Shown piece after piece: positions 14,819 to 49,784 of a stretch of DNA of 64,000 nt. The translations under genes were made by a program, and so were the position numbers. The stretch spans positions 62,001 to 126,000 of the forward strand of contig JAFXBF010000009.1 of assembly GCA_017516745.1 (NCBI GenBank), in the 5' to 3' direction. Each line of letters starts with the position of its first letter. Position 1 is the first letter of the stretch. Origin of the DNA: Clostridia bacterium (GTDB taxonomy: Bacteria > Bacillota > Clostridia > Oscillospirales > Acutalibacteraceae). The notes below the pieces were generated by a model. That model did no database searches. It was not told the DNA's origin and worked only from the letters and a program-made list of their open reading frames with translations.

Positions 14819-14848
14819 TATTGTTTCCTCCTTGTTATTTTGCCTTTG

Positions 14849-15220
14849 TTATTTCGCTACTGAGCCGACTGTGAATTCGGTAACGATGTTGCCGTTGACG
14901 ATGTGGTCTGTAACAACTCTTGCTACCTTGTCAGCAGACATCTGAACGTATGTGACCTTTTCCTGACCGGGTACGAAAACCTCAACGATGGGCTCGTACT
15001 GGCACATACCGATGCAGCCTGTCTGTGAAACTGTTACGCCCTTGAGTGAACGGCGTGCAATTTCCTCTGTAAAAGCATTGAGAACGGGGCGAGCACCTGC
15101 TGCGATACCGCAGGTAGCCATACCGACTACGATTCTGGTGTTTTCCTCGCTGTCGTTTCTTGCTGTCATAGCTTTAAGTGTGCGTTCTTTAATTGCCTGA
15201 AGTTCTGCAAGTGATTTCAT
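14849..15220 (-). CDS. hndB: 2Fe-2S ferredoxin-domain subunit (HndB-like)
   Basis: A 123-aa thioredoxin-like 2Fe-2S protein. The cluster Cys residues appear in GMATCGIAAGA and VSQTGCIGMCQYEP, the spacing seen in HndB and in the N terminus of HndC. It is a small electron carrier of the hydrogenase complex. ATG 15220 has GGAGG nine bases upstream and overlaps the stop of the HATPase gene by four bases (ATGA), which points to translational coupling; the longer frame from 15277 lies wholly inside that gene and is rejected. Confidence 0.92.
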   Translation of the reverse strand: MKSLAELQAIKERTLKAMTARNDSEENTRIVVGMATCGIAAGARPVLNAFTEEIARRSLKGVTVSQTGCIGMCQYEPIVEVFVPGQEKVTYVQMSADKVARVVTDHIVNGNIVTEFTVGSVAK

Positions 15221-36417: not shown

Positions 36418-37245
36418 ATGGTTAAACTGCTGCGAAGACTTACATTGGTGCTGTTTATTCTGGTGTTGGCGGCTTTTATAGCTTTTTCGATTGCGGAAAA
36501 ACTGACAACGGATACAACAATGCCTTACATAACGGTTGATTCCGAAGTTATTGAAATAAGCGTAAAGGATAAAAAAGAAATTCTGCTCTCGGGTGTTACC
36601 GCTTACGACGGAAAAGACGGAGATATTTCAGACAAAGTTCTCATTGAATCAATATCGAAATTTATTGAGCCGGGTGTTTGCTCGGTAACTTATGCGGTAG
36701 CTGATTCCGATAAGCATGTTGCAAAGCAGACACGTACTGTTCGCTATACCGATTATACTCCGCCCGAATTTTATATGAAGCGTGCATTGGTTTACGGTGT
36801 TGATGAGGCGCTTGACATAAGGGCTGCCGTGGGTGCACGTGACAGTATAGACGGTGATATAAGTGACAGGGTTTCCATTGTCACCACCGATTACGTCAAG
36901 AACACAATCGGTGTTTTTACTGTTTCGCTTCAGGTTTCAAACAGCATGGGCGATACGATTTATCTCGACGTTACGGTTCATGTTGAAGGTAACGAAACAA
37001 TGGCACCGCAGATTCAGCTTAAAAAGAGTCTGATTTATGTAAAGAAGGGCGAAGAGCCGAATTTTGAAGACTATCTCGGTGATGTTACGGTTAACGGTGT
37101 GCTGATGAAGAAAGATGAAGTTCAGCTTCTTATTTCTACCAACTTTGATTCCGAAGAAACCGGCACATATAATGTGCATTATTACATTTCAACCAAGGAA
37201 GGTTATGAGGGCCACTCGATTCTGACGGTTGTTGTAGAGGAGTGA
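36418..37245 (+). CDS. membrane-anchored protein with tandem Ig-like (DUF5011-type) domains
   Basis: A 275-aa protein: one N-terminal membrane helix (LVLFILVLAAFIAFSI) then three beta-sandwich repeats. The first two share the DUF5011 pattern: VTAYDGKDGDISDKVLIES...PGVCSVTYAVADS and VGARDSIDGDISDRVSIVT...IGVFTVSLQVSNS; the third is more divergent (GTYNVHYYISTKEG). These folds usually lie outside the cell and bind or space surface structures. Placed between the phosphatase and the chain-length regulators, it may be a structural part of the export machinery, an inference from position. Confidence 0.82.
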   Translation: MVKLLRRLTLVLFILVLAAFIAFSIAEKLTTDTTMPYITVDSEVIEISVKDKKEILLSGVTAYDGKDGDISDKVLIESISKFIEPGVCSVTYAVADSDKHVAKQTRTVRYTDYTPPEFYMKRALVYGVDEALDIRAAVGARDSIDGDISDRVSIVTTDYVKNTIGVFTVSLQVSNSMGDTIYLDVTVHVEGNETMAPQIQLKKSLIYVKKGEEPNFEDYLGDVTVNGVLMKKDEVQLLISTNFDSEETGTYNVHYYISTKEGYEGHSILTVVVEE

Positions 37246-37250
37246 TGGGA

Positions 37251-38759
37251 ATGAAAAACAGAAAATCAGAAATTACTTTCAATTTTGAATGGAACAGTCT
37301 GATAAAAGATATGGTACACAGTCTGTGGTGTATTGTTCTTATTGCTCTGGCTGCCCTGATGAGTATACAGGTTGTTGAAAAGAGTATTTATACTCCGATG
37401 TATACCAGTACGGCTGTTCTCGTTGTGCGCTCAAGAGTCGGCACAACGGGTGCATTCAGCAGCCTGACTGCATCAATGGAAATGGCTAACATTTTCACGG
37501 ATGTATTCAAACAGAATTCTCTTAAAAAGCTGGCGGCAGAGAATATAGGACTGGATACTTTTGACGGCACAATTACCACAAGCCTTACGGCGGAAACAAA
37601 CCTTCTCAATGTTTCTGTAAAGGCCAAAGACCCCGAACTTGCATTCAGGCTGCTCAGGTCAATTCTTGAGGTCTATCCTGAGGTCACGGAGGTGGTTTTT
37701 ACCGATTCGGTTATAGATATTGTTTCTGAGCCCAAAATGGCAACATTTCCCTCAAACTCAAGGCTTACGGTGTACAGGAATGAAATAATCTTTCTTGCTA
37801 TGCTGCTGGAAGGAGGTCTGATTGCAGTTTTCTCGCTGTTCAGAGGTACGGTTAAGGAGGAAAAAGGCTTTGACGATAAGGTCGGTGCCAAGCTTCTCGG
37901 TACAATAGCTCACGAAAAGCCTCACCTTTCCCGAAAAGAACGCTTCAGACGCAAAAAAAGAGCGCTTCTTATCAATGATGCTTATTCAAGCCTGAAATTC
38001 ACAGAGGATTATCAAAAACTCTGCAATAAGTTTGAGTATCTGTACAAGAATCAGGGCAAACAAACTTTTGTTATTTCCAGCGTAGCTGAAAATGAGGGCA
38101 AATCAACCGTTGCATCAAATGTTTCGCTTGCTCTTGCGGAACGGGGCTATAACGTTATTCTTCTGGATATGGACTTGCATAAGCCTTCAATTTACAAGAT
38201 TTTCGATTTCTATGATGCAATTGAAACGGATTGGTTTGATGTGATGTCAAGCAAAACAGAGCTTGTCAATATGAGGTTTTACCGTTACAGAAAAAGCGGG
38301 CTTATAATTGCGTTCAACAAGAAAACGAACACAAATAAAAAAGTTATGATCAACAATCAGGTGGTGGGAAGCAGACTTGAAAAGCTTAAATCCAAGGCTG
38401 ATTTCATAATTATTGATACTCCGCCCACTTCTGTTTCGGCAGATGCGGTTGCAATTGCTGAAAATGCGGATGCAACAGTACTTGTTATCAAAACGGACTG
38501 CGTGCTTGTTGAAGATATAAACGAGACGATTCTGAACATTACGGAATCCGGCGGTAAACTTGAAGGCTGTATACTCAACAATGTTTATGAACCGTTCACC
38601 TTGTTCGGTCAGATTGGCGTTGATGAAAGGGGTTACTATTCCCGCAGTAACAACTACGGCTATTATAAGGTTGACCGGCCGTATTCGGACGGCTATTTGC
38701 GCAGCAATGAGGCGGGATATTCTTACGACTCATCAGATGATATAAGAAGTGACAAATAA
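37251..38759 (+). CDS. Wzz chain-length domain fused to BY-type tyrosine kinase (first copy)
   Basis: A 502-aa fusion of CpsC-like and CpsD-like parts. Membrane helices at about 24-42 and 177-197 flank an external Wzz domain; the cytoplasmic kinase has Walker A SVAENEGKST (about 277-286), Walker A' VILLDMDLHKP and Walker B FIIIDTPPTS. The last 45 residues hold nine Tyr (for example ERGYYSRSNNYGYYK), the autophosphorylation tail. It controls polymer length with the CpsB-type phosphatase. ATG 37251 is eight bases after GAGGAG; GTG 37242 and ATG 37245 are too close to it. Confidence 0.92.
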   Translation: MKNRKSEITFNFEWNSLIKDMVHSLWCIVLIALAALMSIQVVEKSIYTPMYTSTAVLVVRSRVGTTGAFSSLTASMEMANIFTDVFKQNSLKKLAAENIGLDTFDGTITTSLTAETNLLNVSVKAKDPELAFRLLRSILEVYPEVTEVVFTDSVIDIVSEPKMATFPSNSRLTVYRNEIIFLAMLLEGGLIAVFSLFRGTVKEEKGFDDKVGAKLLGTIAHEKPHLSRKERFRRKKRALLINDAYSSLKFTEDYQKLCNKFEYLYKNQGKQTFVISSVAENEGKSTVASNVSLALAERGYNVILLDMDLHKPSIYKIFDFYDAIETDWFDVMSSKTELVNMRFYRYRKSGLIIAFNKKTNTNKKVMINNQVVGSRLEKLKSKADFIIIDTPPTSVSADAVAIAENADATVLVIKTDCVLVEDINETILNITESGGKLEGCILNNVYEPFTLFGQIGVDERGYYSRSNNYGYYKVDRPYSDGYLRSNEAGYSYDSSDDIRSDK

Positions 38760-38771
38760 GGTTGGTAGACT

Positions 38772-40226
38772 ATGAATAACAATCCTGTTAACAAAGAGAA
38801 TAACGGGTCAACCGTTGAATTGCGCATATTTTTAGGAGATATATGGCGTGGTGTAAGAAAATTCGGCTGGGTTGTGGTTGCTCTTGCGGTGCTGCTTGGC
38901 GGAGTACAGTTTTATCGCAGCTATACGAGCTTTGTGCCTGCGTATAATGTTTCTGCAACGTTTACCGTTCACACCGAAAACGAGGTGCTTACGGGAGATA
39001 ACGGAATAGCAGCTTATTCTTTCTATTATGACCGTGAAACTGCTGACCAGCTGGCAACGGTTTTTCCGCATATTATCGGCAATCAGATTCTCCGTACTAA
39101 GGTTTGCGATGACCTGGGCGTTGAAAGTATGCCTGCTTCTGTCAGTGCAAAATGTGTACAGGGCACAAATATGGTTACTCTTACTGCAACCGGTACTGAC
39201 CCTCAGATGACATACGATACGTTGCTTTCGGTTATAGATAATTATCCCGAGCTTGCAGATTATATTATCGGACGAACTAAAGTTGTAATGATAAATGAGC
39301 CCTCTGTGCCTGAAAAGCCTTACAATCAGGGCGCATGGATAGCTTCAGTATCAAGAGCGGCTCTTATCGGAGCGGCGCTTGGTCTGGCGTGGATTGTTGT
39401 GTATGCGTTCATGCGAAAGACCGTACGCACAAAAGAGGACATCAGAACGGTGTTCAATCAGCATTGTATTGCGGTTTTACCTCAGGTTGTGTTCAAGAAA
39501 TACCGCAGAGAAATTGACAGAAGCATACTTATTACCAACCCTCTTGTAGATAATGATTTCCTTGAATCCCTGCGCCTGATGAGAGGCTCGCTTCAGAGCT
39601 TGCTGGCGGATGACAAAAAAACAGTAATGGTTACAAGCACTGCTCCCGCAGAGGGCAAAACCGTTGTTGCGGCAAACCTTGCTTCGATTTTTGCAAAGGA
39701 GGAGAAAAAAGTCCTTCTTATAGATGCGGACCTTCGTAACTCAGGTCTTAAGGAGCTGTTCGGAAAAGCAAAAGTTCCGAAAACCGAGAAAGAGAAAAAC
39801 AGTTTTTACCGTGTGGATACAATAGATTCTCTCGGCTTTGACCTGCTTACTTTTAATAAGCAAATCAACAATGTGCGGAAAATTGTCCACTCAGAGGAGC
39901 TGAAACGAAGGCTTAATGAACTCAAGGCAGAATATGATTTTGTCTTTGTTGATACTCCGCCCTGCGGTATAATTTCCGATGCCGCTATGGTTGCGCAGTC
40001 GGTTGACGCAATCGTTTATGTAATAAGAGAAGATGCTGTTATGCAGAAAACCATCCGCACGGGTATCAGCTCAATGCTCGAAACCGATGCACAATTCCTT
40101 GGCTGTATACTTAACGGTACGGCGATCGGTTTCGGCGGATATTACCGATATGGCGGCTATTACAATAACTACCGCTATGGATATTCGTCAAAATACGGTT
40201 ACGGCAAAAATAAAATCAAAAAGTAA
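38772..40226 (+). CDS. Wzz chain-length domain fused to BY-type tyrosine kinase (second copy)
   Basis: A 484-aa paralogue of the preceding gene, 12 bases on. Helices at about 32-48 and 195-215 flank the external domain, which ends in the Pro-rich EPSVPEKPYNQG typical of Wzz proteins. Kinase motifs: Walker A TSTAPAEGKTV, Walker A' VLLIDADLRNSG, Walker B FVFVDTPPCG. The C terminus has about ten Tyr among Gly (FGGYYRYGGYYNNYRYGY). Compared with the first copy it has a fuller Wzz domain and a more classic kinase; the pair could form mixed complexes. Confidence 0.92.
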   Translation: MNNNPVNKENNGSTVELRIFLGDIWRGVRKFGWVVVALAVLLGGVQFYRSYTSFVPAYNVSATFTVHTENEVLTGDNGIAAYSFYYDRETADQLATVFPHIIGNQILRTKVCDDLGVESMPASVSAKCVQGTNMVTLTATGTDPQMTYDTLLSVIDNYPELADYIIGRTKVVMINEPSVPEKPYNQGAWIASVSRAALIGAALGLAWIVVYAFMRKTVRTKEDIRTVFNQHCIAVLPQVVFKKYRREIDRSILITNPLVDNDFLESLRLMRGSLQSLLADDKKTVMVTSTAPAEGKTVVAANLASIFAKEEKKVLLIDADLRNSGLKELFGKAKVPKTEKEKNSFYRVDTIDSLGFDLLTFNKQINNVRKIVHSEELKRRLNELKAEYDFVFVDTPPCGIISDAAMVAQSVDAIVYVIREDAVMQKTIRTGISSMLETDAQFLGCILNGTAIGFGGYYRYGGYYNNYRYGYSSKYGYGKNKIKK

Positions 40227-40257: not shown

Positions 40258-41973
40258 GTGAAAAAACCGGCTGAATATGTATCCTTGTTCCGCTCTATGG
40301 GTAAGGAATGGGGGTGGATTCTGCATTATGTTTCACGTTATCGTCTTCAGATAATTATTTATGTTGTAATAGGCGTGCTGAGCACAGCGATGGGTCTGGG
40401 CTCAACCGTTGCCTCAAAATATCTTATAGATTCCGTTGTTTCCCGTAACACGAAAACCGTTGCTGTAAGTGCCGTTTTAGCCGTGAGTCTTGCTTTGGCA
40501 CAGATTATCGTTAACGCAGTAACATCAAGGGTTGCAACTGTTGTGGGAACAAAGGTCAGCAATGAAATCCGCTCAAATGTGTATGAGCATATAGTTTATT
40601 CGGATTGGGAGGATATAAGCAGATATCATTCGGGTGACCTGCTCAACAGAATTGAGGGCGATGTTTCGGCTCTGGCAAGCAGCATAATTTCTTTTGTGCC
40701 GAATATTTTTATGAGAGTAACTCAGTTTGTCGGCTGCCTTGCGGTTGTGCTTTATTATGATCCGATAATGGCGGTTTTCGCTTTGCTGAGCGCTCCTTTC
40801 CTTGCGCTTACGTCAAACATTTCCGCAAAAATGATGCGCAAGTATAATATTGAAAGCCGTAATATGAACGGAAAAATCCTTTCGTTTTATTCGGAGTCGA
40901 TACAGAATATCCAGACAATTAAGGCGTTTGGCATAACGGGAAGATATGTCGGTCAACTGAAGGATTATATGGCTGCTTACAGGCAAATGAGGCTTGACCA
41001 TAATAAATTTTCCGTTATGATGACGGCAGGCCTTTCTGTTATAGGCTTGATGGTTGCATATATCTGTTACGGCTGGGGCGTATGGCGTCTGTGGCAGGGC
41101 TTTATAACCTTCGGTACGATGACACTGTTTTTGCAGATTTCAGGTCAGCTTACATCATCTTTTTCTGCAATTGTTTCTCTGCTGCCTACATCAATTTCCA
41201 TTGCTACGGCGGCAGGCAGAATTATGGAGATTACTGATATCCCACTTGAAAAAAGCGATGATGATTCCATCGCCGAAGATATGGCTGCCATGGCTGAAAA
41301 ATCAGGAATTTTCCTGAAATGCGACAACCTGACTTATGCATATAAGGGCACGGATATACCTGTTGTAAAGGATATATCGTTCTGTGTAAATCCGGGCGAA
41401 ACGGTTGCTTTGATCGGCCCTTCAGGTGAGGGTAAAACAACAATCCTCCGCCTTATTCTTGGCCTTGTAAAGCCGCAGGACGGATGTATGGCAATGTCAG
41501 TTGCCGATGGCAGAGTGCTTGATGTTTCTGCAAGCACCAGAAGATTCTGCTCGTATGTGCCGCAGGAAAATGCGGTTTTCGCAGGCAGTATAGCCGATAA
41601 TCTGCGCATTGTAAAACCACAGGCTACGGATGAAGAGCTTGTTGAAGCGCTTAAAAATGCAGATGCGTGGGGCTTTATCGAAAGGCTTCCTGACGGAATT
41701 TATACGCAGATGAATGAAAAAGGCGTGAATTTTTCGGAGGGTCAGGTGCAGCGTATTTCAATTGCGAGAGCATTACTCAGAAATGCTCCCGTTCTTGTAA
41801 TGGACGAGGCAACGAGTGCACTCGATGCCGCAACGGAAGCCACCGTTCTTGCTAATATTATGAAATCGTATCCCAACAGAACCTGTGTTATTACCACTCA
41901 CAGACCGAGTATGCTGCAATATTGCAACAGGGTGTATGAGGTTGATGAGGCAGGTAATCTGACACTCAGATAA
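40258..41973 (+). CDS. ABC exporter, fused membrane and ATPase domains
   Basis: A 571-aa half-transporter. About residues 20-310 form a six-helix exporter domain; the ATPase follows with Walker A GPSGEGKTT, Q-loop YVPQENAVF, a degenerate signature NFSEGQVQR in place of LSGGQ, Walker B PVLVMDEATSALD and H-loop VITTHRPS. It has no peptidase domain. Start is GTG, after GGAGGTG. A terminator follows it and a new promoter precedes the peptide-modification genes, so it could export polysaccharide, lipid-linked sugar or the modified peptide of that module. Confidence 0.92.
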   Translation: MKKPAEYVSLFRSMGKEWGWILHYVSRYRLQIIIYVVIGVLSTAMGLGSTVASKYLIDSVVSRNTKTVAVSAVLAVSLALAQIIVNAVTSRVATVVGTKVSNEIRSNVYEHIVYSDWEDISRYHSGDLLNRIEGDVSALASSIISFVPNIFMRVTQFVGCLAVVLYYDPIMAVFALLSAPFLALTSNISAKMMRKYNIESRNMNGKILSFYSESIQNIQTIKAFGITGRYVGQLKDYMAAYRQMRLDHNKFSVMMTAGLSVIGLMVAYICYGWGVWRLWQGFITFGTMTLFLQISGQLTSSFSAIVSLLPTSISIATAAGRIMEITDIPLEKSDDDSIAEDMAAMAEKSGIFLKCDNLTYAYKGTDIPVVKDISFCVNPGETVALIGPSGEGKTTILRLILGLVKPQDGCMAMSVADGRVLDVSASTRRFCSYVPQENAVFAGSIADNLRIVKPQATDEELVEALKNADAWGFIERLPDGIYTQMNEKGVNFSEGQVQRISIARALLRNAPVLVMDEATSALDAATEATVLANIMKSYPNRTCVITTHRPSMLQYCNRVYEVDEAGNLTLR

Positions 41974-41981
41974 AAACAGAA

Positions 41982-42027
41982 AAAACAGTTTGTGCGGTTT
42001 GGAAACTGTGCAGACTGTTTTATTTTT
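41982..42027 (+). terminator. terminator after the ABC exporter gene
   Basis: AAAACAGT pairs with ACTGTTTT, extended inward by several pairs with wobbles, followed by TATTTTTT. Confidence 0.7.
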
Positions 42028-42068: not shown

Positions 42069-42097
42069 TTGATTTATATGGGCGGTAGTGATATAAT
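42069..42097 (+). promoter_or_regulatory. promoter of the peptide-modification module
   Basis: TTGATT (42069-42074), 17 bases, TATAAT (42092-42097) with a TGA extension. A second TATAAT lies at 42106-42111. This gives the pqqD-to-NTP_transf_5 genes their own transcript. Confidence 0.8.
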
Positions 42098-42145
42098 CAA
42101 TTCTGTATAATAAGACAGTAGTGTCATTTTAAGGAGGGGTTGGCA

Positions 42146-42412
42146 ATGTACCGTGTGAAAGAAGGTTTTATCATACGCAAAATCGGCGGTAGTATTATGG
42201 CTGTGCCGACAGGAACACAGACATCTGAAATGCACGGTATGATAGCGCTTAACGAAAGCGGAGAGCTGCTTTGGAATCTGCTCGAAAAGGGTACAACTCC
42301 CGAAGAGCTTGCCGAGACACTTGCCGAGCATTATGAAGTGGAAAAGTCAGTTGCCCTCAGCGATGCAATCAGGTTTATCGATATGCTGAAAGAGCAGGGT
42401 GCTTTACAGTGA
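42146..42412 (+). CDS. PqqD-family peptide chaperone-like protein
   Basis: An 88-aa winged-helix protein of the PqqD family: a beta-rich N terminus (YRVKEGFIIRKIGGSIMAVP), then MIALNESGELLWNLLEKG and TPEELAETLAEHYEV, ending in a helix FIDMLKEQGALQ. PqqD proteins (RRE fold) bind leader peptides and present them to modifying enzymes. ATG 42146 is seven bases after AAGGAGGGG. Its stop overlaps the radical SAM start by four bases (GTGA), so the two are made together. Confidence 0.93.
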   Translation: MYRVKEGFIIRKIGGSIMAVPTGTQTSEMHGMIALNESGELLWNLLEKGTTPEELAETLAEHYEVEKSVALSDAIRFIDMLKEQGALQ

Positions 42413-43473
42413 CTGACAGCTGCGAAAAATTCGGTGACGGTTTTCTCGGTAAACTTAATATCTGGGCAAAAGAGACCTGCGTGCCGTTCAGCACGTCATT
42501 TGAGTTGACTCCTTTCTGCAATTTCCGCTGTGTTATGTGCTATGTTCGCCTCGATAAAGAGCAGGCAGAGCAGCAGGGTCGGTTACTGTCAGCCTCCGAG
42601 TGGCTGGAAATTGCAAAAGGCTTACGTGATATGGGTACACTTCAGATTGACCTTACGGGAGGCGAAGTTTTTGTCTACCCTGAATTCTGGGAGCTGTACA
42701 GCGAGCTTAACAGGATGGGCTTTCTGATAGCTGTACTTTCAAACGGTTCACTGATTGATGAGTCGGTTATGGAAAAATTCCGTTTGTACGGTATGCCGCA
42801 CAGCGTAAAGCTTACGCTTTACGGTGCAAGCAACGAAACCTATTTACGGGTATGCGGCTCACCAGACGGTTTTTCAAAAATTTCAAAAGCAATTGACCTT
42901 TTACATAGTGCAGGCGTGCCGGTGTCAATGTCGGCAACCATTGTGCGTGAAAACGCTGATGACTTGCAGTCTATGTATAGATTTGCCGCAGAAAAAGGAA
43001 TAAGGCTGCATCATTCGGTAGCGGTACTCAAGCCGTCACGTGGTGCGGTTAATACAGCAGAAAGCTCAAGGCTCGGATTTCTCGACTATTCTTACGAGTA
43101 TACGTTGGAGGATCTGGAAAACAGCCGATACCGTATTCCTGAATATCCTTTTTCGATGTGTGCAGGTTACCGCAAGTCATTGTTTATCACCTGGAACGGA
43201 CATCTTCAGCTCTGCTCGTTTATGAGCAAGCCTTATGTAAGCTACTCAGGAGATATAAAAAATGATTTTTCGAAGCTTTACGGCTTGCTTGAACAAATAA
43301 AAAATCCGCCTGAGTGTGCGGCTTGCGAATGGAAAGAGTTTTGTCAAAGATGTCCTGCAGTATTGTGCTGTGAAAGCGGTCATCCTGAAAAAATTGATAA
43401 AAACTTCTGCGAAACAGCAAAACAGTTAAAGAGGTTATATGATATGAAAAGGGGAATGAATTATGAAGAATAA
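42409..43473 (+). CDS. radical SAM/SPASM peptide-modifying enzyme
   Basis: A 354-aa enzyme. The SAM-binding 4Fe-4S motif is CNFRCVMC (Cys 37, 41, 44), followed by the GGE motif in DLTGGEVFVYPEF. The C-terminal SPASM region holds many Cys (MCAGY, QLCSF, CAACEWKEFCQRC, CCESG, FCETA), enough for auxiliary clusters. Such enzymes form thioether, C-C or epimer modifications in ribosomal peptides. The start is GTG, overlapping pqqD; the stop overlaps the candidate precursor by 11 bases. The overlap chain PqqD-rSAM-precursor is the main evidence for a peptide substrate. Confidence 0.93.
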   Translation: MTDSCEKFGDGFLGKLNIWAKETCVPFSTSFELTPFCNFRCVMCYVRLDKEQAEQQGRLLSASEWLEIAKGLRDMGTLQIDLTGGEVFVYPEFWELYSELNRMGFLIAVLSNGSLIDESVMEKFRLYGMPHSVKLTLYGASNETYLRVCGSPDGFSKISKAIDLLHSAGVPVSMSATIVRENADDLQSMYRFAAEKGIRLHHSVAVLKPSRGAVNTAESSRLGFLDYSYEYTLEDLENSRYRIPEYPFSMCAGYRKSLFITWNGHLQLCSFMSKPYVSYSGDIKNDFSKLYGLLEQIKNPPECAACEWKEFCQRCPAVLCCESGHPEKIDKNFCETAKQLKRLYDMKRGMNYEE

Positions 43474-43744
43474 GTATGTTGCTCCCGAAAGCAAACTCAT
43501 TGCGCTCAACTTCAAAGAGAGTATTGCCTCTTCTGAAAGCGGCGATATAGTCAGCGGTATGGCTGTTATCAAGTTCCATGCAGCCAAGGATGCCTGCAGG
43601 CAAACTTACACCAAACGTATACCTGTATCACAGGGCGTAGGCCCCGATTTCATTGACTATTACAGCGATTTTATGTCACTTGTACAGTCGACCAGTAATT
43701 TTGAAGCGTACTTTTATTGCTTCAACGGTATGCAGGATTTATGA
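43463..43744 (+). CDS. candidate precursor peptide of the radical SAM module
   Basis: A 93-aa peptide with no signal sequence or membrane helix. The N terminus MKNKYVAPESKLIALNF has the K-Y-x-x-P-E-x-x-x-x pattern seen at the start of leader peptides recognised by PqqD-like domains; an acidic SSESGDIVSGMAV region follows, where a leader could end. The C-terminal half is rich in Tyr, Phe, Ser and Thr with two Cys (DACRQ, YFYCFNG). It overlaps the radical SAM gene by 11 bases and the kinase gene by four (ATGA). Core and cleavage site cannot be fixed. It could instead be a small accessory protein. Confidence 0.65.
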   Translation: MKNKYVAPESKLIALNFKESIASSESGDIVSGMAVIKFHAAKDACRQTYTKRIPVSQGVGPDFIDYYSDFMSLVQSTSNFEAYFYCFNGMQDL

Positions 43745-44505
43745 TTTGTATTGCAGATTTACTTATTGAATGGGGCAACGGACACCTTGACTTTGTAAGA
43801 GATTTTGTTGCGGATTCGCACGGCACGCCTGTGATGAGAATAGATTTCCGAAGCAGGTTACCCGAATGCCACGGTGTGAAATATACCGACAGTCTGTCTG
43901 ACAGATTCCTCTGTGCAGATAACGGCGGTTTCCTTTTTGCCAACAAAGATTGGTCTGAGGCGACGTCGTATCTTCTGCCTGAATTGAATGCGGATTACAC
44001 CTTGCCTCTTGCGGCAATATGTTCAAGGCTTTCGTATTACAATGTGCTGCTCACACATTCTTCGTTTGTTATATATCAGGGCAAAGGTATTATTTTTACC
44101 GGATATTCCGGCGTGGGCAAAACTACGCAGGCTGAACTCTGGGCAAAGTACAACAATGCCGAGATAGTAAACGGTGATAAGGTTTTTATCCGTAGTGTTG
44201 ACGGCAGGTTTTATGCATACGGTCTGCCGTGGAATGGCTCGTCAGATTATTGTCTCAATAAAAAAGCCGAGCTTTGCGGCGTGGTTGTGCTCAGGCAGTC
44301 TGAGAAAAACCGCATAACAAGGCTTGATGAAGAAGCTACAGAATATTTTATGCCGCACATCTTCCTTCCGCATTGGGATAAGGAATGCCTCGGCAATGCG
44401 CTGGATACTTTTGATAAGCTTATCGGTACCGTTCCGGTGTATCTGCTTGAGTGCAGACCGGATGAAGAGGCGGTTGAAATTACAAAAACTGCTGTTTTCG
44501 GGTGA
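43741..44505 (+). CDS. HprK-like kinase (peptide or protein Ser kinase)
   Basis: A 254-aa protein whose C-terminal part has the HPr kinase core: THSSFVIYQGKGIIFTGYSG then VGKTT forms the Walker A loop (121-129), followed by IVNGDKVFIRS with the metal Asp and YGLPWNGSS. The N-terminal 100 residues are unique to this clan of HprK relatives. Relatives in lasso-peptide clusters such as that of paeninodin phosphorylate the precursor, and others occur in exopolysaccharide loci with PqqD. Start 43741 (ATGA overlap) is preferred to 43717. Confidence 0.87.
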   Translation: MICIADLLIEWGNGHLDFVRDFVADSHGTPVMRIDFRSRLPECHGVKYTDSLSDRFLCADNGGFLFANKDWSEATSYLLPELNADYTLPLAAICSRLSYYNVLLTHSSFVIYQGKGIIFTGYSGVGKTTQAELWAKYNNAEIVNGDKVFIRSVDGRFYAYGLPWNGSSDYCLNKKAELCGVVVLRQSEKNRITRLDEEATEYFMPHIFLPHWDKECLGNALDTFDKLIGTVPVYLLECRPDEEAVEITKTAVFG

Positions 44506-44508
44506 GTT

Positions 44509-44961
44509 ATGGAAAAACTTGACTGTTCCGCATATGATGTTGCGGACTCAATTGAAGAAATGATAAAAAGCGGTGCAACCGTGCCCGTGTATATCAGCGG
44601 CAACAGTATGAATCCGTTCCTGGTCAGCAGACGGGATGTTGTTTATCTGAAAGGCTTCAGCGATGCGGAACTGAAAAAAGGCAGGATTCTCCTGTTCAGA
44701 CGAAATGACGGCCGGTTGGTTCTGCACAGATTGAATGGTTCACTTTCCGACGGAAAGCTTCAGGTTGTCGGTGACGGTCAGGTGCAATGCGAAACAATTG
44801 ATAAGGCTCAGGTTGTTGCAGTAGTCAGCGATATTGAGCGCAAAGGCAAAAAACGCAGTGCAGATTCTTTCCGCTGGAAAACGGTGAGCTTTTTCTGGCA
44901 GTTGCTTATGCCGTTACGTCCTCTTGTTATGAGAGTCTGGCGGCGATTAAAAACAAGTTAG
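44509..44961 (+). CDS. S24/S26 signal-peptidase-like protein with Ser-His pair
   Basis: A 150-aa protein. YISGNSMNPFL carries the nucleophile Ser (about S33) in the G-x-S-M-x-P context of LexA/signal peptidase enzymes; KKGRILLFRRNDGRLVLHRL gives a His (about H73) where signal peptidase I has Lys, as in SipW/ER-type peptidases. There is no N-terminal membrane helix; a weak hydrophobic patch lies near the C terminus (FFWQLLMPL). It may cut the leader from the neighbouring peptide. It starts three bases after the kinase gene. Confidence 0.82.
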   Translation: MEKLDCSAYDVADSIEEMIKSGATVPVYISGNSMNPFLVSRRDVVYLKGFSDAELKKGRILLFRRNDGRLVLHRLNGSLSDGKLQVVGDGQVQCETIDKAQVVAVVSDIERKGKKRSADSFRWKTVSFFWQLLMPLRPLVMRVWRRLKTS

Positions 44962-44974
44962 CGGAGCAAAGGTT

Positions 44975-46129
44975 ATGGAGCAGATGGTTCAGATAATAAT
45001 GCAGCTTATCGGCAGTGAAGTTTTCGGAAATAAGCTCTCTGCGTCTGATGAAATCTGTTTTACGGATAAACTGCTTATAGAAATGCTGATACTTTCCCGT
45101 AATCATAATGTTGCACAGCTTGTTGCTTCTGCTTTGCTGAACAGCGGTGTTATCGAAAACAGTCCGCAAAAGGGACTGTATCTTAACGAAATATATTCTG
45201 CGGTATATTCGCAGGAAAAAATGTGCGAAACATGTCGGGAAATATATGCGGTGTTCGATAGAGAGAAAATCGCATATATTCCGCTCAAGGGAGCGGTTAT
45301 ACGAGACCTGTATCCTCAGCCGTGGATGCGTGTCAGCGGCGATACTGATATTCTTGTCAAAGAAAAAGACAGGCAATCCGCAATCAATACAGTTCTGAAT
45401 ACCGGCGGATATGAGCTGAAAAAAGAAAGCGCTTACGATGCTTCGTTTGTATCTGCTGACGGCACGCTGATTGAACTGCACCATAAACTTTTTGCGGATA
45501 AGAAGTTTGCAAAGAAAATTCCGGATGTGTGGGCATCGGCAGAGTGCGACGGCGATTCGGAGTACAGATATAAACTGAGTGACGGTATTTTCTGTTATTA
45601 TCATATTCTGCACATGGCAAAGCATTTTGAAAACGGGGGCTGCGGTATAAGGTCGTTTATTGATTTGCGGCTGATTGAGCAGGCGTATAACCTTGATTCC
45701 GATGAAGTTAAAAAGCTGCTGAAAAAAAGCGGACTTTCTGTTTTTTCTTATTATGCAAGAAGGCTGTGTGCCGTATGGTTTGACGGTCAGGAACATGATG
45801 AAAAAACTTTACAGATGGAAAAATATATTCTTGACGGCGGAGTTTTCGGAACGGAAAAAACAAAAATTATTTCCCAACAGCAGCGCACAGGCGGAAAACG
45901 GCAGTATTTTCTGTCGAAAATATTTGTACCGTACAGTTCGCTCCGGTATTTGTATCCTGCTCTTAAAAAATATCCGTTTCTGTTTCCGTTTTATGAGGTG
46001 CGCCGTTGGTTTTCCTTTTTGTTTGGCGGAAGAAAAAAGTTCAGAAAGAATTACGCTGCACAGTTTGACAGAGTGTTGAGTAAACAGCCTGAAAATTATT
46101 CGCTGTTTGAAGATTTAGGGCTTAAATAA
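44975..46129 (+). CDS. NTP_transf_5-type nucleotidyltransferase-fold protein
   Basis: A 384-aa protein. YIPLKGAVIRDLYPQPWMRVSGDTDILV (residues about 101-128; Asp 123 and 125 in GDTD) is the polymerase-beta-type nucleotidyltransferase site of the NTP_transf_5 group; LIELHHKLF follows. The rest is helical with a basic aromatic C-terminal region (YPFLFPFYEVRRWFSFLFGG) that may touch the membrane. Members sit in peptide-modification and exopolysaccharide clusters beside HprK-like and PqqD genes, but their reaction is not known. Last gene of the module, 14 bases after the peptidase gene. Confidence 0.85.
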   Translation: MEQMVQIIMQLIGSEVFGNKLSASDEICFTDKLLIEMLILSRNHNVAQLVASALLNSGVIENSPQKGLYLNEIYSAVYSQEKMCETCREIYAVFDREKIAYIPLKGAVIRDLYPQPWMRVSGDTDILVKEKDRQSAINTVLNTGGYELKKESAYDASFVSADGTLIELHHKLFADKKFAKKIPDVWASAECDGDSEYRYKLSDGIFCYYHILHMAKHFENGGCGIRSFIDLRLIEQAYNLDSDEVKKLLKKSGLSVFSYYARRLCAVWFDGQEHDEKTLQMEKYILDGGVFGTEKTKIISQQQRTGGKRQYFLSKIFVPYSSLRYLYPALKKYPFLFPFYEVRRWFSFLFGGRKKFRKNYAAQFDRVLSKQPENYSLFEDLGLK

Positions 46130-46160: not shown

Positions 46161-46841
46161 ATGTACGAAAAAGTAATTAAAAGAGTAATGGATTTTCTGC
46201 TGGCTTTGGCAGCGCTTATCGTTTTGTCACCGCTGTTTCTGGTGCTGATAATTGTCGGCTCAGTTCAGATGAAAGGTAAAGTGTTCTTTGTCCAGCCTCG
46301 TCCCGGTAAGAATGAGCGGATTTTCAAACTCATAAAATTCAGTTCAATGACTCAGGAAAAAGATGCTCACGGAAATCTGTTACCCGATGAAAAAAGACTT
46401 ACAAAATACGGCAAATTCCTTCGTGCAACATCGCTTGATGAATTGCCGGAGCTTATCAATATTCTCGTAGGTGATATGTCTGTTGTCGGCCCACGTCCAC
46501 AGCTTGTGAGGGATATGGTTTTTATGACTCCCGAACAAAGGCGCCGCCACAGCGTTATGCCCGGGCTGACAGGTCTTGCTCAGGTCAACGGCAGAAACAA
46601 CATCTCATGGGAAAAGAAATTTGAATATGACCTTGAGTACATAGATAGCGGTATTACCTTTGCAAAAGATATAAAAATTATTCTGCAGACGGTGGGTAAG
46701 GCTTTCGCCCGTGAAGATGTTGTCCGTGACGGTACGGTCAGCGACCTGGATTTCGGCGATTATCTGCTTGAAAAAGGCGAAATAAGCAAAGAAGAATATA
46801 ATCTTTGTCAGCAAGAGGCTAAAGAATTGCTGGAGGTATAA
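46161..46841 (+). CDS. initiating undecaprenyl-phosphate sugar-1-phosphate transferase
   Basis: A 226-aa polyprenyl-phosphate transferase of the short (PglC/WcaJ C-domain) type. One N-terminal helix (MDFLLALAALIVLSPLFLVL) precedes the catalytic core: VFFVQPRPGKNERIFKLIKF, LRATSLDELPELINIL with the Asp-Glu pair, VGPRPQLV and PGLTGLAQVNGRN. It puts the first sugar phosphate on undecaprenyl phosphate on the inner face of the membrane and so starts each repeat unit. Confidence 0.95.
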   Translation: MYEKVIKRVMDFLLALAALIVLSPLFLVLIIVGSVQMKGKVFFVQPRPGKNERIFKLIKFSSMTQEKDAHGNLLPDEKRLTKYGKFLRATSLDELPELINILVGDMSVVGPRPQLVRDMVFMTPEQRRRHSVMPGLTGLAQVNGRNNISWEKKFEYDLEYIDSGITFAKDIKIILQTVGKAFAREDVVRDGTVSDLDFGDYLLEKGEISKEEYNLCQQEAKELLEV

Positions 46842-46843
46842 AA

Positions 46844-47671
46844 ATGCCCGATACAAGATTTTCCGTGTCCATGTGTGTTTATATAAAAGACACCCCCGAA
46901 TGGTTCACGACTGCTGTTGAGAGTGTTCTCAACCAGACGGTGAAACCGAGTGAAGTAGTTCTGGTGGTTGACGGTCCTGTTACTGCCCAACTTGATGCGA
47001 TAATTACGGATTATGAAAAAAATCCCTTGTTCCGAATTGTCCGCCTGCCGAAAAATGTTGGCCACGGTGAAGCAAGGCGAGCGTGTCTTAACCACTGTCG
47101 GTATGAACTGGTTGCCCTTATGGATGCGGATGATATAAGCGCAAGTGACAGATTTGAAAAGCAACTCGCTTTGTTTGAAGCGAATCCCGAGCTTACAATA
47201 GCAGGCGGCAATATCACCGAGTTTGTGGGCGACCCCGAAAATATAGTGGGTGCACGTGTTGTTTCGCAGGATGATGCAGCAATCAAAGCGGATATGAAAA
47301 TAAGATGTCCGATGAATCAGGTAACGGTTATGTTCCGCAAAAGTGCTGTTGAAAAAGTCGGAGGATATATAGATTGGTACAACGAAGAAGACTATTACCT
47401 CTGGCTGCGGCTGTATCTCGACGGTGCGGTGTTTGCCAACCTGCCGGATTATCTTGTAAATGTCCGTGTAGGCAAGGAGATGTATCAGCGCCGGGGCGGC
47501 AAAAAATATTTCTTAAGCGAAGCGAAGCTTCAGAAATATATGCTTGATAACAAAGTTATCGGGTTTGGTGCTTTCGCAATCAATGTCGGCAAAAGGTTTG
47601 TTGTCCAGATTATGCTGCCGAATAAGCTCCGCAGTTGGGTGTTCAAAAAATTTGCAAGAAAGACAGTTTGA
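46844..47671 (+). CDS. GT2-family glycosyltransferase
   Basis: A 275-aa GT-A enzyme. FSVSMCVYIKDTPEWFTTAVESVLNQT is the typical GT2 start; VALMDADDISASDRFEKQL holds the DxD metal motif; YNEEDYYLWLRLYLDGA the acceptor/catalytic ED-W region. It adds one sugar to the lipid-linked unit in the cytoplasm. It starts two bases after the initiating transferase gene with GGAGG, so its sugar may be the second in the chain. Confidence 0.93.
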   Translation: MPDTRFSVSMCVYIKDTPEWFTTAVESVLNQTVKPSEVVLVVDGPVTAQLDAIITDYEKNPLFRIVRLPKNVGHGEARRACLNHCRYELVALMDADDISASDRFEKQLALFEANPELTIAGGNITEFVGDPENIVGARVVSQDDAAIKADMKIRCPMNQVTVMFRKSAVEKVGGYIDWYNEEDYYLWLRLYLDGAVFANLPDYLVNVRVGKEMYQRRGGKKYFLSEAKLQKYMLDNKVIGFGAFAINVGKRFVVQIMLPNKLRSWVFKKFARKTV

Positions 47672-47676
47672 ATTTT

Positions 47677-48102
47677 ATGGGTGAAAAGAAATACAAAATC
47701 GGATATACAACAGGTGTTTTTGATTTGTTCCATATCGGTCATCTGAATATTCTCAGAAGAGCGAAAGAGCAGTGTGAATATCTCATTGTAGGTGTTACAA
47801 CAGATGAACTCTGCACAAAAACCAAAAGCAAGCATCCCATTATCTGCGAAGCCGAAAGGGTTGCGATTATAGAGTCTGTCAGATATGTTGACAAAGTAGT
47901 GCTGCAATCTGATATGGACAAGCTGTCTGCAGTTAAAAACCACGGTGTTAATGCGGTTTTTGTCGGGTCAGATTGGAAAGGTACACCTTCATGGGTTAAG
48001 TATGAGCAGGAGTTTGAGAGTGTCGGTTGCAAGGTTGTGTATTTAGAGCATACTGACGGCATATCATCTACAATTTTGCGTGAAAGGCTTAATAAAGAAT
48101 GA
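47677..48102 (+). CDS. cytidylyltransferase (glycerol-3-phosphate type, TagD-like)
   Basis: A 141-aa nucleotidyltransferase. TTGVFDLFHIGHLNIL carries HxGH; RYVDKVV, GSDWKGTPSW and HTDGISSTIL match the GCT/TagD signature blocks (R-Y-V-D, W-x-G, R-T-x-G-I-S-T-T with H for R). It should make CDP-glycerol or a related CDP-alcohol used to decorate the polymer, with the LicD protein two genes on as the likely transferase. ATG 47677 lacks a strong ribosome binding site; the frame from 47635 lies within the previous gene. Confidence 0.88.
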   Translation: MGEKKYKIGYTTGVFDLFHIGHLNILRRAKEQCEYLIVGVTTDELCTKTKSKHPIICEAERVAIIESVRYVDKVVLQSDMDKLSAVKNHGVNAVFVGSDWKGTPSWVKYEQEFESVGCKVVYLEHTDGISSTILRERLNKE

Positions 48103-48929
48103 TTTTTGTTTACCGAAAGTGGGAAGAGATTTGCCGCAAGCTAAAAGAAAAAGGTTTGCAAAGTATTCCTGCTTGTGAGGTTAAATCCGATTCGGGTAAT
48201 TATGTCGTTTTAAAACACGATGTTGAAACCGATGTTCAGCGAGCACACAAAATAGCACAGATTGAAAAAGAATACGGACACAGGGGCAGCTATTACGTTC
48301 AGGCATATCTGCTTAGCAACAACAAAAATGTTGAGCTGCTTTCCGAAATGCAACAGATGGGACACGAGGTATCTTATCATTACGATGTGCTTGATTACTG
48401 TAAGGGTAATATGGAAGAGGCTGATGTTGAGTTCGAAAAAAATCTGAATTTGTTCAGAAGCAAAGGCTTACGGGTTGTTACGGTGTGTCAGCACGGCAAT
48501 CCGATTATTGAGCGCAACGGATACAGCTCAAACCGAGATTTTTTCAGAAACAGCAGTATCAGAGCAAAGTATACCGATATTGCGGATATTATGGTGAATT
48601 TCAAAGAGAAATTTTCAACCGACTATCTGTATTTTTCTGATGCAGGCAGAATGTTCAAATTGATTTATGACCCGATTAACAATGACGTTATAAACAGTGA
48701 TGATAAAAATATTCCGTTCAACAGCGTAGATGAACTGCTGAACGGATTGGATAACGAAATCGGAAATATTATCAGCATCCATCCTCACCGCTGGATGCAA
48801 TCCGCAACGTTTTATTTGTGCAAAAAATGTATATTTAAGGTGTTGAAAACTGTTGCAAAAATAATGGCTAAAATACCTGTATTTAACAGACTTATGAGCA
48901 AGTATTATTATCTGGCTAAAAAAATATGA
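48099..48929 (+). CDS. polysaccharide-deacetylase-like (NodB-fold) protein
   Basis: A 276-aa protein. VVLKHDVETDVQRAHKIAQIE matches the NodB motif 1 position (Asp then acid), HRGSYYVQAY the next strand, GHEVSYHYDVLDY motif 2 with His residues, VCQHGNPI a middle block and ISIHPHRWM a C-terminal His motif. The divergent metal motifs leave it open whether it deacetylates. The C terminus is basic and may face the membrane. ATGA overlap with the cytidylyltransferase gene shows tight coupling. Confidence 0.78.
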   Translation: MIFVYRKWEEICRKLKEKGLQSIPACEVKSDSGNYVVLKHDVETDVQRAHKIAQIEKEYGHRGSYYVQAYLLSNNKNVELLSEMQQMGHEVSYHYDVLDYCKGNMEEADVEFEKNLNLFRSKGLRVVTVCQHGNPIIERNGYSSNRDFFRNSSIRAKYTDIADIMVNFKEKFSTDYLYFSDAGRMFKLIYDPINNDVINSDDKNIPFNSVDELLNGLDNEIGNIISIHPHRWMQSATFYLCKKCIFKVLKTVAKIMAKIPVFNRLMSKYYYLAKKI

Positions 48930-48953: not shown

Positions 48954-49784
48954 ATGAGTAAGCAGTCCGTGCGTGCGGTACAAGGAAAAATACTTGAAAT
49001 AATGAACTTTATTGACAAGCTGTGCCGTGAGCATGGGATTGTTTATTATATAATGGGCGGCACTGCATTGGGCGCTGTGCGCCACGGCGGGTTTATCCCG
49101 TGGGATGATGATCTTGATATTTTTATGACTCCTGAGCAGTATGAGAAATTCAAGGCTGTTTTTGAAAAAGAAAAAAACAGACAGTTTGTTATTCAGGAGT
49201 GGCGCACCGATTCAAAATATCTTGAGTATGCAAAGGTACGCATGAACGGCACAACTTTTATTGAGGGGAATTTCAAAGATTTCAAAGATATGCACCACGG
49301 CATTTATGTTGATATTATGATTCTTCACAAAGTGCCCGAAAACATACTCATTCAGAAAATGGTTTACCTTGAGTCAAAATTTGTTACGCTTTACGGTTTG
49401 TCACAAAGAAATTGGAAGCCCAAATCGAAAGCACAGGCTGTTGTGCTGAATTCACTTAAATTTCTGCCCTGCAAACTTATGACAAGAATAGCTTACAGTC
49501 ATATTTATCGCTATGACGGCAGAGAGAAGAATTATAAATATTGCTACTGGATTACTCCTGCCGGATTTCGCAACGGCTTGTTTGATGCCTCGTTTTTTGA
49601 AAAGCCCGTTGATGTTCCTTTTGAGGATACAGTATTGCTCGGCTCAGAAAAAATCAAGGAGTATCTTGAATACAGATACGGCGATTATATGAAGCTGCCA
49701 AGCGAAGAGCAACAGAAAGCGGCCGTTCATGCATATGTGTTTGATACTGAAAAAGATTATACGGAGTATTTGGGGAATGTGTAA
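48954..49784 (+). CDS. LicD-family phospho-group transferase
   Basis: A 276-aa protein with the LicD/fukutin signature: YYIMGGTALGAVRHGGFIPWDDDLDIFM, where the GGT.LG and DDDLD (metal) motifs mark a nucleotidyltransferase-like fold, and YAKVRMNGTTFIEG. LicD proteins move phosphocholine, and relatives move glycerol- or ribitol-phosphate, from a CDP donor to a sugar. The TagD-like enzyme two genes upstream would supply the donor, so the polymer probably bears a phosphate-linked substituent. Confidence 0.92.
   Translation: MSKQSVRAVQGKILEIMNFIDKLCREHGIVYYIMGGTALGAVRHGGFIPWDDDLDIFMTPEQYEKFKAVFEKEKNRQFVIQEWRTDSKYLEYAKVRMNGTTFIEGNFKDFKDMHHGIYVDIMILHKVPENILIQKMVYLESKFVTLYGLSQRNWKPKSKAQAVVLNSLKFLPCKLMTRIAYSHIYRYDGREKNYKYCYWITPAGFRNGLFDASFFEKPVDVPFEDTVLLGSEKIKEYLEYRYGDYMKLPSEEQQKAAVHAYVFDTEKDYTEYLGNV

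Follow-up and report, generated by a model that had tools for sequence, protein, structure and literature searches.

Kinases of the HprK-related kinase B type are found with PqqD and NTP_transf_5 proteins in exosortase-associated gene sets. HprK-type kinases are also known from clusters for lasso peptides, which are ribosomally synthesized and post-translationally modified peptides (RiPPs). The reported target of lasso-type kinases is the precursor's C-terminal Ser (PMC9266682; papers are cited here and below for individual passages), while BsfK, accelerated by the B1 protein, is reported to phosphorylate core Ser3 of a precursor with Ile in leader position -2; those lasso clusters with Ile or Val at this position that were found in the same study are reported to encode a kinase or phosphotransferase (PMC10368454). 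PsmN carries the annotation of a nucleotidyltransferase and reportedly adds one or two hexoses to phosphoserine (PMC9266682); it is likened here to NTP_transf_5 proteins by this annotation. W/Y/LxxP is described as a recognition motif across several RiPP classes (PMC12710340), and SkfB as a sactisynthase, an enzyme making Cys thioethers (PMC6231123). The subject here is a six-gene cassette that includes a radical S-adenosylmethionine (rSAM) enzyme and lies in an exopolysaccharide (EPS) locus. It is found in a 64,000 nt stretch, hereafter the window, of the assembly of a gut bacterium designated Clostridia bacterium (Acutalibacteraceae; GCA_017516745.1, contig JAFXBF010000009.1, positions 62,001 to 126,000).

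The interpretation favored, with a probability of about 0.8, is that this is a RiPP cassette in which lasso-type recognition and a lasso-type kinase are paired with a SkfB/PqqE-like rSAM enzyme instead of a lasso cyclase. A RiPP-like module had been proposed from the sequence of the window (the original prediction), and it gains support from a 93-amino acid (aa) precursor frame kept in 7/7 loci, from loci with several precursors, and from a match between rSAM genes and precursor cysteine. The cassette is real and more general than could be seen from the window: related cassettes occur in other Clostridia.

The proposed precursor peptide and its predicted modifying enzymes

The candidate precursor is encoded at 43463-43744 (+ strand, like the other cassette genes, the terminator-like stem, the promoter, and the ABC exporter, Wzz/BY-kinase, and Bac_transf genes described below), with the leader, residues 1-22, at 43463-43528. 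It has no Pfam match, and its single NCBIfam match (E 0.18) is at chance level. A search of contigs with the rSAM protein found seven orthologous loci (L016-L022), all from metagenome-assembled Clostridia, six with ruminant gut named in the record title. Conservation of the frame alongside the rSAM gene had been named beforehand as a point on which the proposal could fail; the frame is present in 7/7 loci with this orthologue, an encoded precursor with a leader being conserved together with the adjacent modifying enzyme, as in RiPP clusters. Residues invariant in the eight aligned clade peptides are M1, K2, Y5, P8, S10, L12, E19, I21, A22, S24, G32, I36, F38, C45, R46, Y49, Y66, and C86. The leader motifs are YxxP (Y5xxP8, in 8/8 clade peptides) and ExIA (E19xI21A22). 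The ratio of nonsynonymous to synonymous substitution (Ka/Ks) is 0.05 for the precursor versus L016 and L017, compared with 0.05-0.07 for the rSAM gene and 0.20 for the NTP_transf_5 gene; versus L018, silent sites are saturated. Conservation in 7/7 loci with a Ka/Ks of 0.05 rules out a chance frame.

Most of the other loci hold a short frame starting like M-K-K-x-Y-x-x-P. While clade peptides were found by BLAST, those outside the clade were found via the YxxP pattern, so that the motif is there by construction. YxxP frames make up 40/411 of the small open reading frames (ORFs) within 1 kb of a cassette, versus 47/5328 elsewhere (Fisher odds ratio 12, p 1e-23). The 45-peptide set discussed below comprises the window peptide, 39 of the 40 near matches (that of L060, without Cys, was dropped as a presumed chance frame), and five added by hand: those of L025, L026, L028, and L061, all farther away than 1 kb, and that of L035, which does not fit the pattern. 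The rSAM locus L046 yielded no precursor, nor, by the strict rule, did six of ten held-out rSAM loci (L115, L117, L118, L120, L121, L122); a looser pattern yields Cys-bearing, Ser-ending peptides in L115 and L121. For loci without rSAM, a peptide was found in 8/21, and in 5/40 in the held-out set. Four loci (L041, L043, L044, L045) have two or three precursors each, with a common leader and differing cores, resembling a pattern often seen in RiPP clusters. Similar leaders are seen in rumen lasso precursors (PMC7533575, Table 3).

The rSAM/SPASM gene (42409-43473; PF04055, 9e-25) encodes a predicted peptide-modifying enzyme. Among 42 sequences, its CxxxCxxC motif and each of the seven SPASM-type cysteines show conservation of at least 98%. 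The best solved matches to the family profile are SkfB, then 5v1q (a "Radical SAM" chain which we take to be SuiB), then PqqE; the protein scores below cut-off for every one of the best 25 of 65 matched NCBIfam families. Cysteine in the precursors follows the presence of the enzyme: it is found in 37/37 precursors of rSAM loci (one to five each) versus 0/8 in kinase loci without rSAM, as computed without correction for kinship. With the precursor rule unchanged, held-out loci gave 4/4 with rSAM versus 0/6 without, two of these six being near-identical neighbors in L079; applying only the strict rule, and including the window and L060, gives a contrast of 33/33 versus 0/8. PqqD proteins, examined as a control, show no difference (Cys in 21/37 versus 23/41). 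No other evidence speaks as strongly for action of the rSAM enzyme on precursor cysteine, which the comparison indicates as probable. An rSAM maturase with a SPASM-type cluster domain and Cys in the core, the combination characteristic of sactipeptide systems, is present here; the two cysteines invariant in the clade are C45 (43595-43597) and C86 (43718-43720).

The next gene (43741-44505) encodes a predicted peptide kinase of the HprK/PEPCK (phosphoenolpyruvate carboxykinase) fold. The Pfam match to HprK falls below cut-off, as do those of the neighboring proteins to S24 and SPASM, but the structure model (pLDDT 93, pTM 0.90) best matches PEPCK and HPr kinase in the PDB, in agreement with the HprK-like identity first suggested. 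His106, the P-loop Lys127, and Asp146 are invariant in 39 rSAM-locus kinases and in a set of 62 for loci without rSAM (the window being in both). A match to TIGR04355 is weak (2.5e-4, 20 of 200 bits) and far under the family cut-off. The frame has an alternative TTG start 24 bases upstream of the ATG at 43741, but the ATG, overlapping the peptide stop, is likelier. Judging from homologues, the kinase probably phosphorylates the peptide. The invariant serines of the clade precursors are leader S10 and S24 (43532-43534), two residues past I21-A22. S24 is a candidate and would probably be the phosphosite, by a presumed parallel with Ser3 of BsfA, which is placed about alike.

The remaining parts have roles assigned from homologues, as are leader binding and phosphorylation. 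The PqqD-type protein (42146-42412; PF05402, 4.4e-17) is a discrete RiPP recognition element (RRE). Its best NCBIfam matches, below cut-off, are lasso PqqD families, and its nearest solved chains are the lasso B1 proteins TbiB1 (4e-4) and TfuB1 (0.005); a leader-recognition element is thus accompanied by a matching leader motif, with binding predicted from sequence. (A third PqqD-like domain of this genome, at G000:C1:46952-47116 in L073, lies inside a 481-aa frame.) The S24/S26-like peptidase (44509-44961), a candidate leader peptidase and an optional part, has the Ser-His pair originally described: Ser33 and His73 are 98% conserved in 45 sequences. The NTP_transf_5 protein (44975-46129; PF14907, 1.7e-41), also optional, has a nucleotidyltransferase fold and a D123xD125 motif with both Asp kept in 25/25 sequences. 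Upstream, an ABC exporter without peptidase domain (40258-41973) adjoins the cassette in the window and in 7/7 relatives. It may serve the peptide or the polymer; because the ABC gene of L025 and L031 lies among EPS genes, apart from the cassette trio, it counts as a possible cassette part.

Locus structure and occurrence in other Clostridia

The six genes span 42146-46129. As the original prediction had it, all frames are present, and four of the five junctions overlap or are within 3 bases: PqqD and rSAM overlap by 4 bases, rSAM and peptide by 11, and peptide and kinase by 4, with gaps of 3 bases between kinase and peptidase and 13 between peptidase and NTP_transf_5. An intrinsic-terminator-like stem of 18 pairs with a T tail (41982-42021), downstream of the exporter gene, ends the upstream ABC/BY-kinase unit; a stem with a T tail was also seen by eye in the ABC-PqqD gap of L017-L020. 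It is followed by the extended -10 promoter proposed for the cassette, TTGATT-17-TATAAT with TG/TGA before the box (42069-42097). A promoter scan alone is at chance level (7 found, 7.8 expected in shuffles), and the box alone would be chance, but its recurrence with the same spacing in the ABC-PqqD gap of 5/5 relatives having one (L016-L020) supports a promoter. L021 and L022 have no such gap, their ABC and PqqD genes being directly adjacent.

The placement between bacterial tyrosine kinases (BY-kinases) and an initiating transferase was likewise borne out: two Wzz/BY-kinase genes lie at 37242-40226, and the initiating sugar transferase Bac_transf at 46161-46841 (PF02397, 2e-58), 31 bases past NTP_transf_5. 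Twenty-seven proteins were scanned between 35644 and 62971. They include CpsB, a surface Ig-like protein, glycosyltransferases, a cytidylyltransferase, LicD, a Wzy-like polymerase, a flippase, and nucleotide-sugar enzymes. Neither a lasso cyclase (PF00733, not searched genome-wide) nor an exosortase was found among these 27, as anticipated from the window, and no two-component domain; one frame, 48099-48929, matched no family at the 1e-5 limit. The cytidylyltransferase-like gene (47668-48102) and the LicD gene (48954-49784) suggest a phosphocholine- or phosphopolyol-type polymer decoration. The Ig-like protein (36418-37245) lies between CpsB and the first BY-kinase; genes similar to it in size, the only property compared, adjoin Wzz/BY-kinase in L025, L031, L037, and L046.

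The gene order Wzz/BY-kinase, Wzz/BY-kinase, ABC, PqqD, rSAM, 93-aa frame, kinase is kept in 7/7 orthologous loci. More distant relatives were sought in three surveys, in which flank lengths vary between loci and several contigs are cut. In the same family, an rSAM homologue was found in 12/100 genomes (own included) at 1e-20. The 14 places outside the window have the kinase in 13/14 and PqqD in 12/14, a thirteenth PqqD being the C-terminal part of a natural kinase-PqqD fusion in L035 (10497-11630; PF05402, 2.6e-13). A second peptide frame in L035 (11849-12040), near the fusion, is presumably NHLP/Nif11-like in look. In the class (293 genomes), the rSAM profile matched 13 genomes, at 14 places in all, and the profile of the kinase matched 79 genomes. 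Of places scoring at least 330 bits, own included, 11/11 have a kinase within 930 bases, versus 0/3 weaker places; ten of these loci were new, all with the kinase. The order survey (297 genomes) gave ten new loci, eight with the kinase. In all, 31/34 rSAM loci outside the window clade (14 family, 10 class, and 10 order loci, with the weak class places L047-L049 excluded) have the kinase; the set is not confined to the window.

Co-occurrence of all six families in EPS loci, the check proposed along with the original prediction, was borne out in part. L041, L044, and L045, from another family, have peptide, PqqD, rSAM, kinase, peptidase, NTP_transf_5, and ABC genes beside CpsB and an initiating transferase. 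Elsewhere the peptidase and NTP_transf_5 are optional, which rules out a single fixed six-gene set, and 26/34 rSAM loci outside the clade have no EPS marker in the fetched stretch. EPS markers, counted by hidden Markov model match at 1e-20 only (L043, whose neighbor is a NusG-family protein, is thus uncounted), are near 7/7 clade relatives, 2/14 family loci, 6/10 class loci (three from one genus, two from one genome), 0/10 order loci, and 0/3 weak rSAM loci. The order-level result makes it less likely that the rSAM cassette generally sits among EPS genes. The EPS loci L041 (at 13793-14854, the copy subjected to a domain scan), L044, and L045 each have a second, distinct radical SAM/SPASM gene within a few genes of NTP_transf_5.

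Judged from neighboring genes, the EPS setting recurs in separate lineages and is one of at least two surface settings. Frames of at least 800 aa, some of them chance frames, lie within 4 kb of 19/34 rSAM loci and 20/61 kinase loci without rSAM, and many start like secreted proteins, by eye. The second rSAM-cassette setting is beside a frame of ~1400-2650 aa (L023-L026, L028-L030, L034, L036, L114-L116, L118, L119, L123). These frames look secreted where the start is visible; of three that were scanned, two have lectin or PA14 domains. Several of the loci also have a small gene that reads as lipoprotein-like. L023 and L118 have no kinase in the stretch; L025 is also near EPS genes. Without rSAM, L050 (same genome, contig C15) encodes a 990-aa secreted-looking protein, a Cys-free YxxP peptide, kinase, ABC, PqqD, and an S26-like peptidase, and L052, L054-L056, L063, and L067 are kinase loci with Cys-free YxxP peptides beside surface proteins with, by reading, an S-layer homology (SLH) look.

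A possible pathway and the alternatives

If the cassette works as its parts suggest, the PqqD protein would bind and present the 93-aa peptide via the lasso-like YxxP leader, and the rSAM/SPASM enzyme would modify the core at C45 and/or C86, most likely forming thioether cross-links, like its nearest solved relative, SkfB. The HprK-like kinase would phosphorylate a core Ser, perhaps the C-terminal one in relatives having it and probably S24 in this clade. The leader could be cut near I21-A22, perhaps by the S24/S26-like peptidase where present, and the peptide would leave the cell through an ABC exporter. A sugar or nucleotide may be added to the phosphate by NTP_transf_5, as reported for PsmN, and the product would act together with the polymer at the cell surface. 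That the cassette is made for the polymer is plausible from gene context and place; the type of bond, and any attachment to polysaccharide, are guesses.

Several observations weigh against the RiPP reading or parts of it. The window-clade precursor is conserved over its whole length, unlike the variable cores of many RiPPs; its structure model, with helices and strands, is of low confidence (pLDDT 54) and was not used; and the genomes behind the precursor counts are related, with some of the counted frames picked by hand. A slight excess of Cys is also seen in the kinases of rSAM loci (2.9% versus 2.2%), a difference too small to explain the precursor contrast. The window-clade kinase has NGD, with Gly before D146, where lasso kinases (PadeK, ThcoK, BsfK) reportedly carry DD. 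The peptidase is found in 3/7 orthologous loci (not L019-L022) and NTP_transf_5 in 5/7 (not L019 or L020, where the cassette stops at the kinase and a gene read from its sequence as fucosidase-like follows). Besides the 26/34 loci lacking EPS markers, the markers near the other 8/34 compare with 4/61 for kinase loci without rSAM (one-sided p 0.02, kinship uncorrected).

The C-terminal Ser cuts both ways. In favor of the RiPP reading, it is found in 12/14 other same-family precursors versus 10/357 ORFs of at least 300 aa (not all of these being genes), in 5/15 of the class set, and in 4/4 held out, or 21/33 other rSAM-locus precursors overall. However, none of the eight window-clade precursors has it, so that in this clade it can be ruled out as the target of the kinase. 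This sets the clade apart from PadeK- and ThcoK-type systems, whereas BsfK, acting on core Ser3, has no need of such a residue (PMC10368454). Where the kinase occurs without rSAM, 3/8 and 0/6 precursors have it (3/14 total), and the L023 precursor ends in Ser with no kinase within the fetched stretch. Because few no-rSAM kinase precursors have it and L023 has it without a kinase, it follows locus type more than the kinase; by these counts it marks one branch of rSAM cassettes and is not a general kinase mark.

Of the alternatives, the one that survives best, though unlikely, is a role for the peptide as a secreted signal or as a bacteriocin-like product that just happens to share a locus with EPS genes. 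Ranthipeptides are also rSAM-made, and cassettes without EPS genes exist, for example L033 (PqqD, rSAM, peptide, kinase, peptidase, ABC). In a rumen culture collection, ranthipeptide clusters are reportedly more frequent than those of any other RiPP class and come mostly from Bacillota (PMC13289728). Strong purifying selection on the whole precursor (Ka/Ks 0.05) argues otherwise, as does the repeated occurrence of relatives beside EPS genes or large secreted-looking proteins; the lack of a two-component domain among the 27 scanned EPS-locus proteins points the same way, although such a scan cannot reveal immunity genes.

It is doubtful that the modified peptide is covalently joined to EPS or its lipid carrier through a phosphodiester, as a cap, anchor, or side group, with the kinase and NTP_transf_5 building a phosphosugar bridge on a core Ser. 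Both genes do lie between the BY-kinases and the initiating transferase, NTP_transf_5 keeps its D123xD125, all parts recur in the EPS loci L041, L044, and L045 of another family, and PsmN offers a reported precedent for hexoses on phosphorylated Ser (PMC9266682). L019 and L020, however, lack NTP_transf_5 yet retain Wzz/BY-kinases, peptide, rSAM, and kinase, and most related cassettes outside the clade (26/34) are without an EPS marker.

The 93-aa protein could also be left unmodified, as a small adaptor or structural protein, with the rSAM enzyme and kinase acting on some other substrate. Its length, great for a RiPP core, its conservation throughout, and the helices and strands of its low-confidence model would fit, but this is improbable given that precursor Cys tracks rSAM presence, that four loci have several precursors with one leader and unlike cores, and that the nearest solved relatives of the RRE protein are lasso B1 proteins. 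A degenerate lasso cluster that has lost its cyclase and B2 protease is highly improbable and was rejected: B1-like PqqD, HprK-like kinase, nucleotidyltransferase, and ABC exporter are indeed lasso accessory parts (PMC10368454, PMC8498205), but there is no Transglut_core3 (B2; PF13471) match in the whole genome at E 0.1 and no cyclase among the 27 scanned proteins, the rSAM gene is intact and under selection, and no Gly directly follows the conserved IA in any of the eight peptides.

The RiPP reading can be carried further, very tentatively, to a surface conjugate: a Cys-cross-linked, phosphoserine-bearing ribosomal peptide would be joined by phosphodiester to EPS, and a YxxP/PqqD/HprK platform, with or without rSAM, would serve polysaccharides and large secreted proteins across Clostridia. 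The RiPP reading itself suggests a link of modified peptides with cell surfaces, not with warfare. If it is correct, lasso-type recognition and kinase form a general platform in which the cyclase is exchangeable for a radical enzyme; the chemistry can be predicted directly from the rSAM/Cys rule; and gut Clostridia with the EPS form offer a means of finding out whether ribosomal peptides are carried on bacterial polysaccharides.

Comparison with known systems

No paper joining all these parts was found in the open-licence literature, and the available passages of PMC12710340, PMC7470986, and PMC10352776 include none of relevance on the kinase or on polysaccharides. The nearest described clusters are those for the phosphorylated or phosphoglycosylated lasso peptides paeninodin, pseudomycoidin, and Bsf, which have in common with the window cassette a YxxP leader, a discrete PqqD/B1 protein, an HprK-type kinase, a nucleotidyltransferase, and an ABC exporter. 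The window cassette differs from these phospho-lasso clusters in its rSAM/SPASM enzyme, Cys core, kinase NGD rather than DD, lack of a C-terminal Ser, and EPS-locus setting, and from lasso clusters generally in having no B2 match in the genome and no cyclase among the scanned locus proteins. Exosortase-associated sets are set apart by the weak likeness of the window kinase to TIGR04355 and by the lack of an exosortase among the scanned EPS-locus proteins.

With SkfB and PqqE/SuiB-type rSAM-SPASM systems the cassette shares its enzyme class and a Cys-bearing precursor, and its PqqD is discrete, as in the PQQ (pyrroloquinoline quinone) and StsC systems (PMC12710340). Unlike sactipeptide maturases, the window rSAM enzyme is paired with a lasso-type kinase. 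Clostridial loci without rSAM, such as L050, share the YxxP peptide and the kinase (and in L050 also PqqD, the S26-like peptidase, and ABC), but differ in having neither the rSAM enzyme nor Cys in the peptide.

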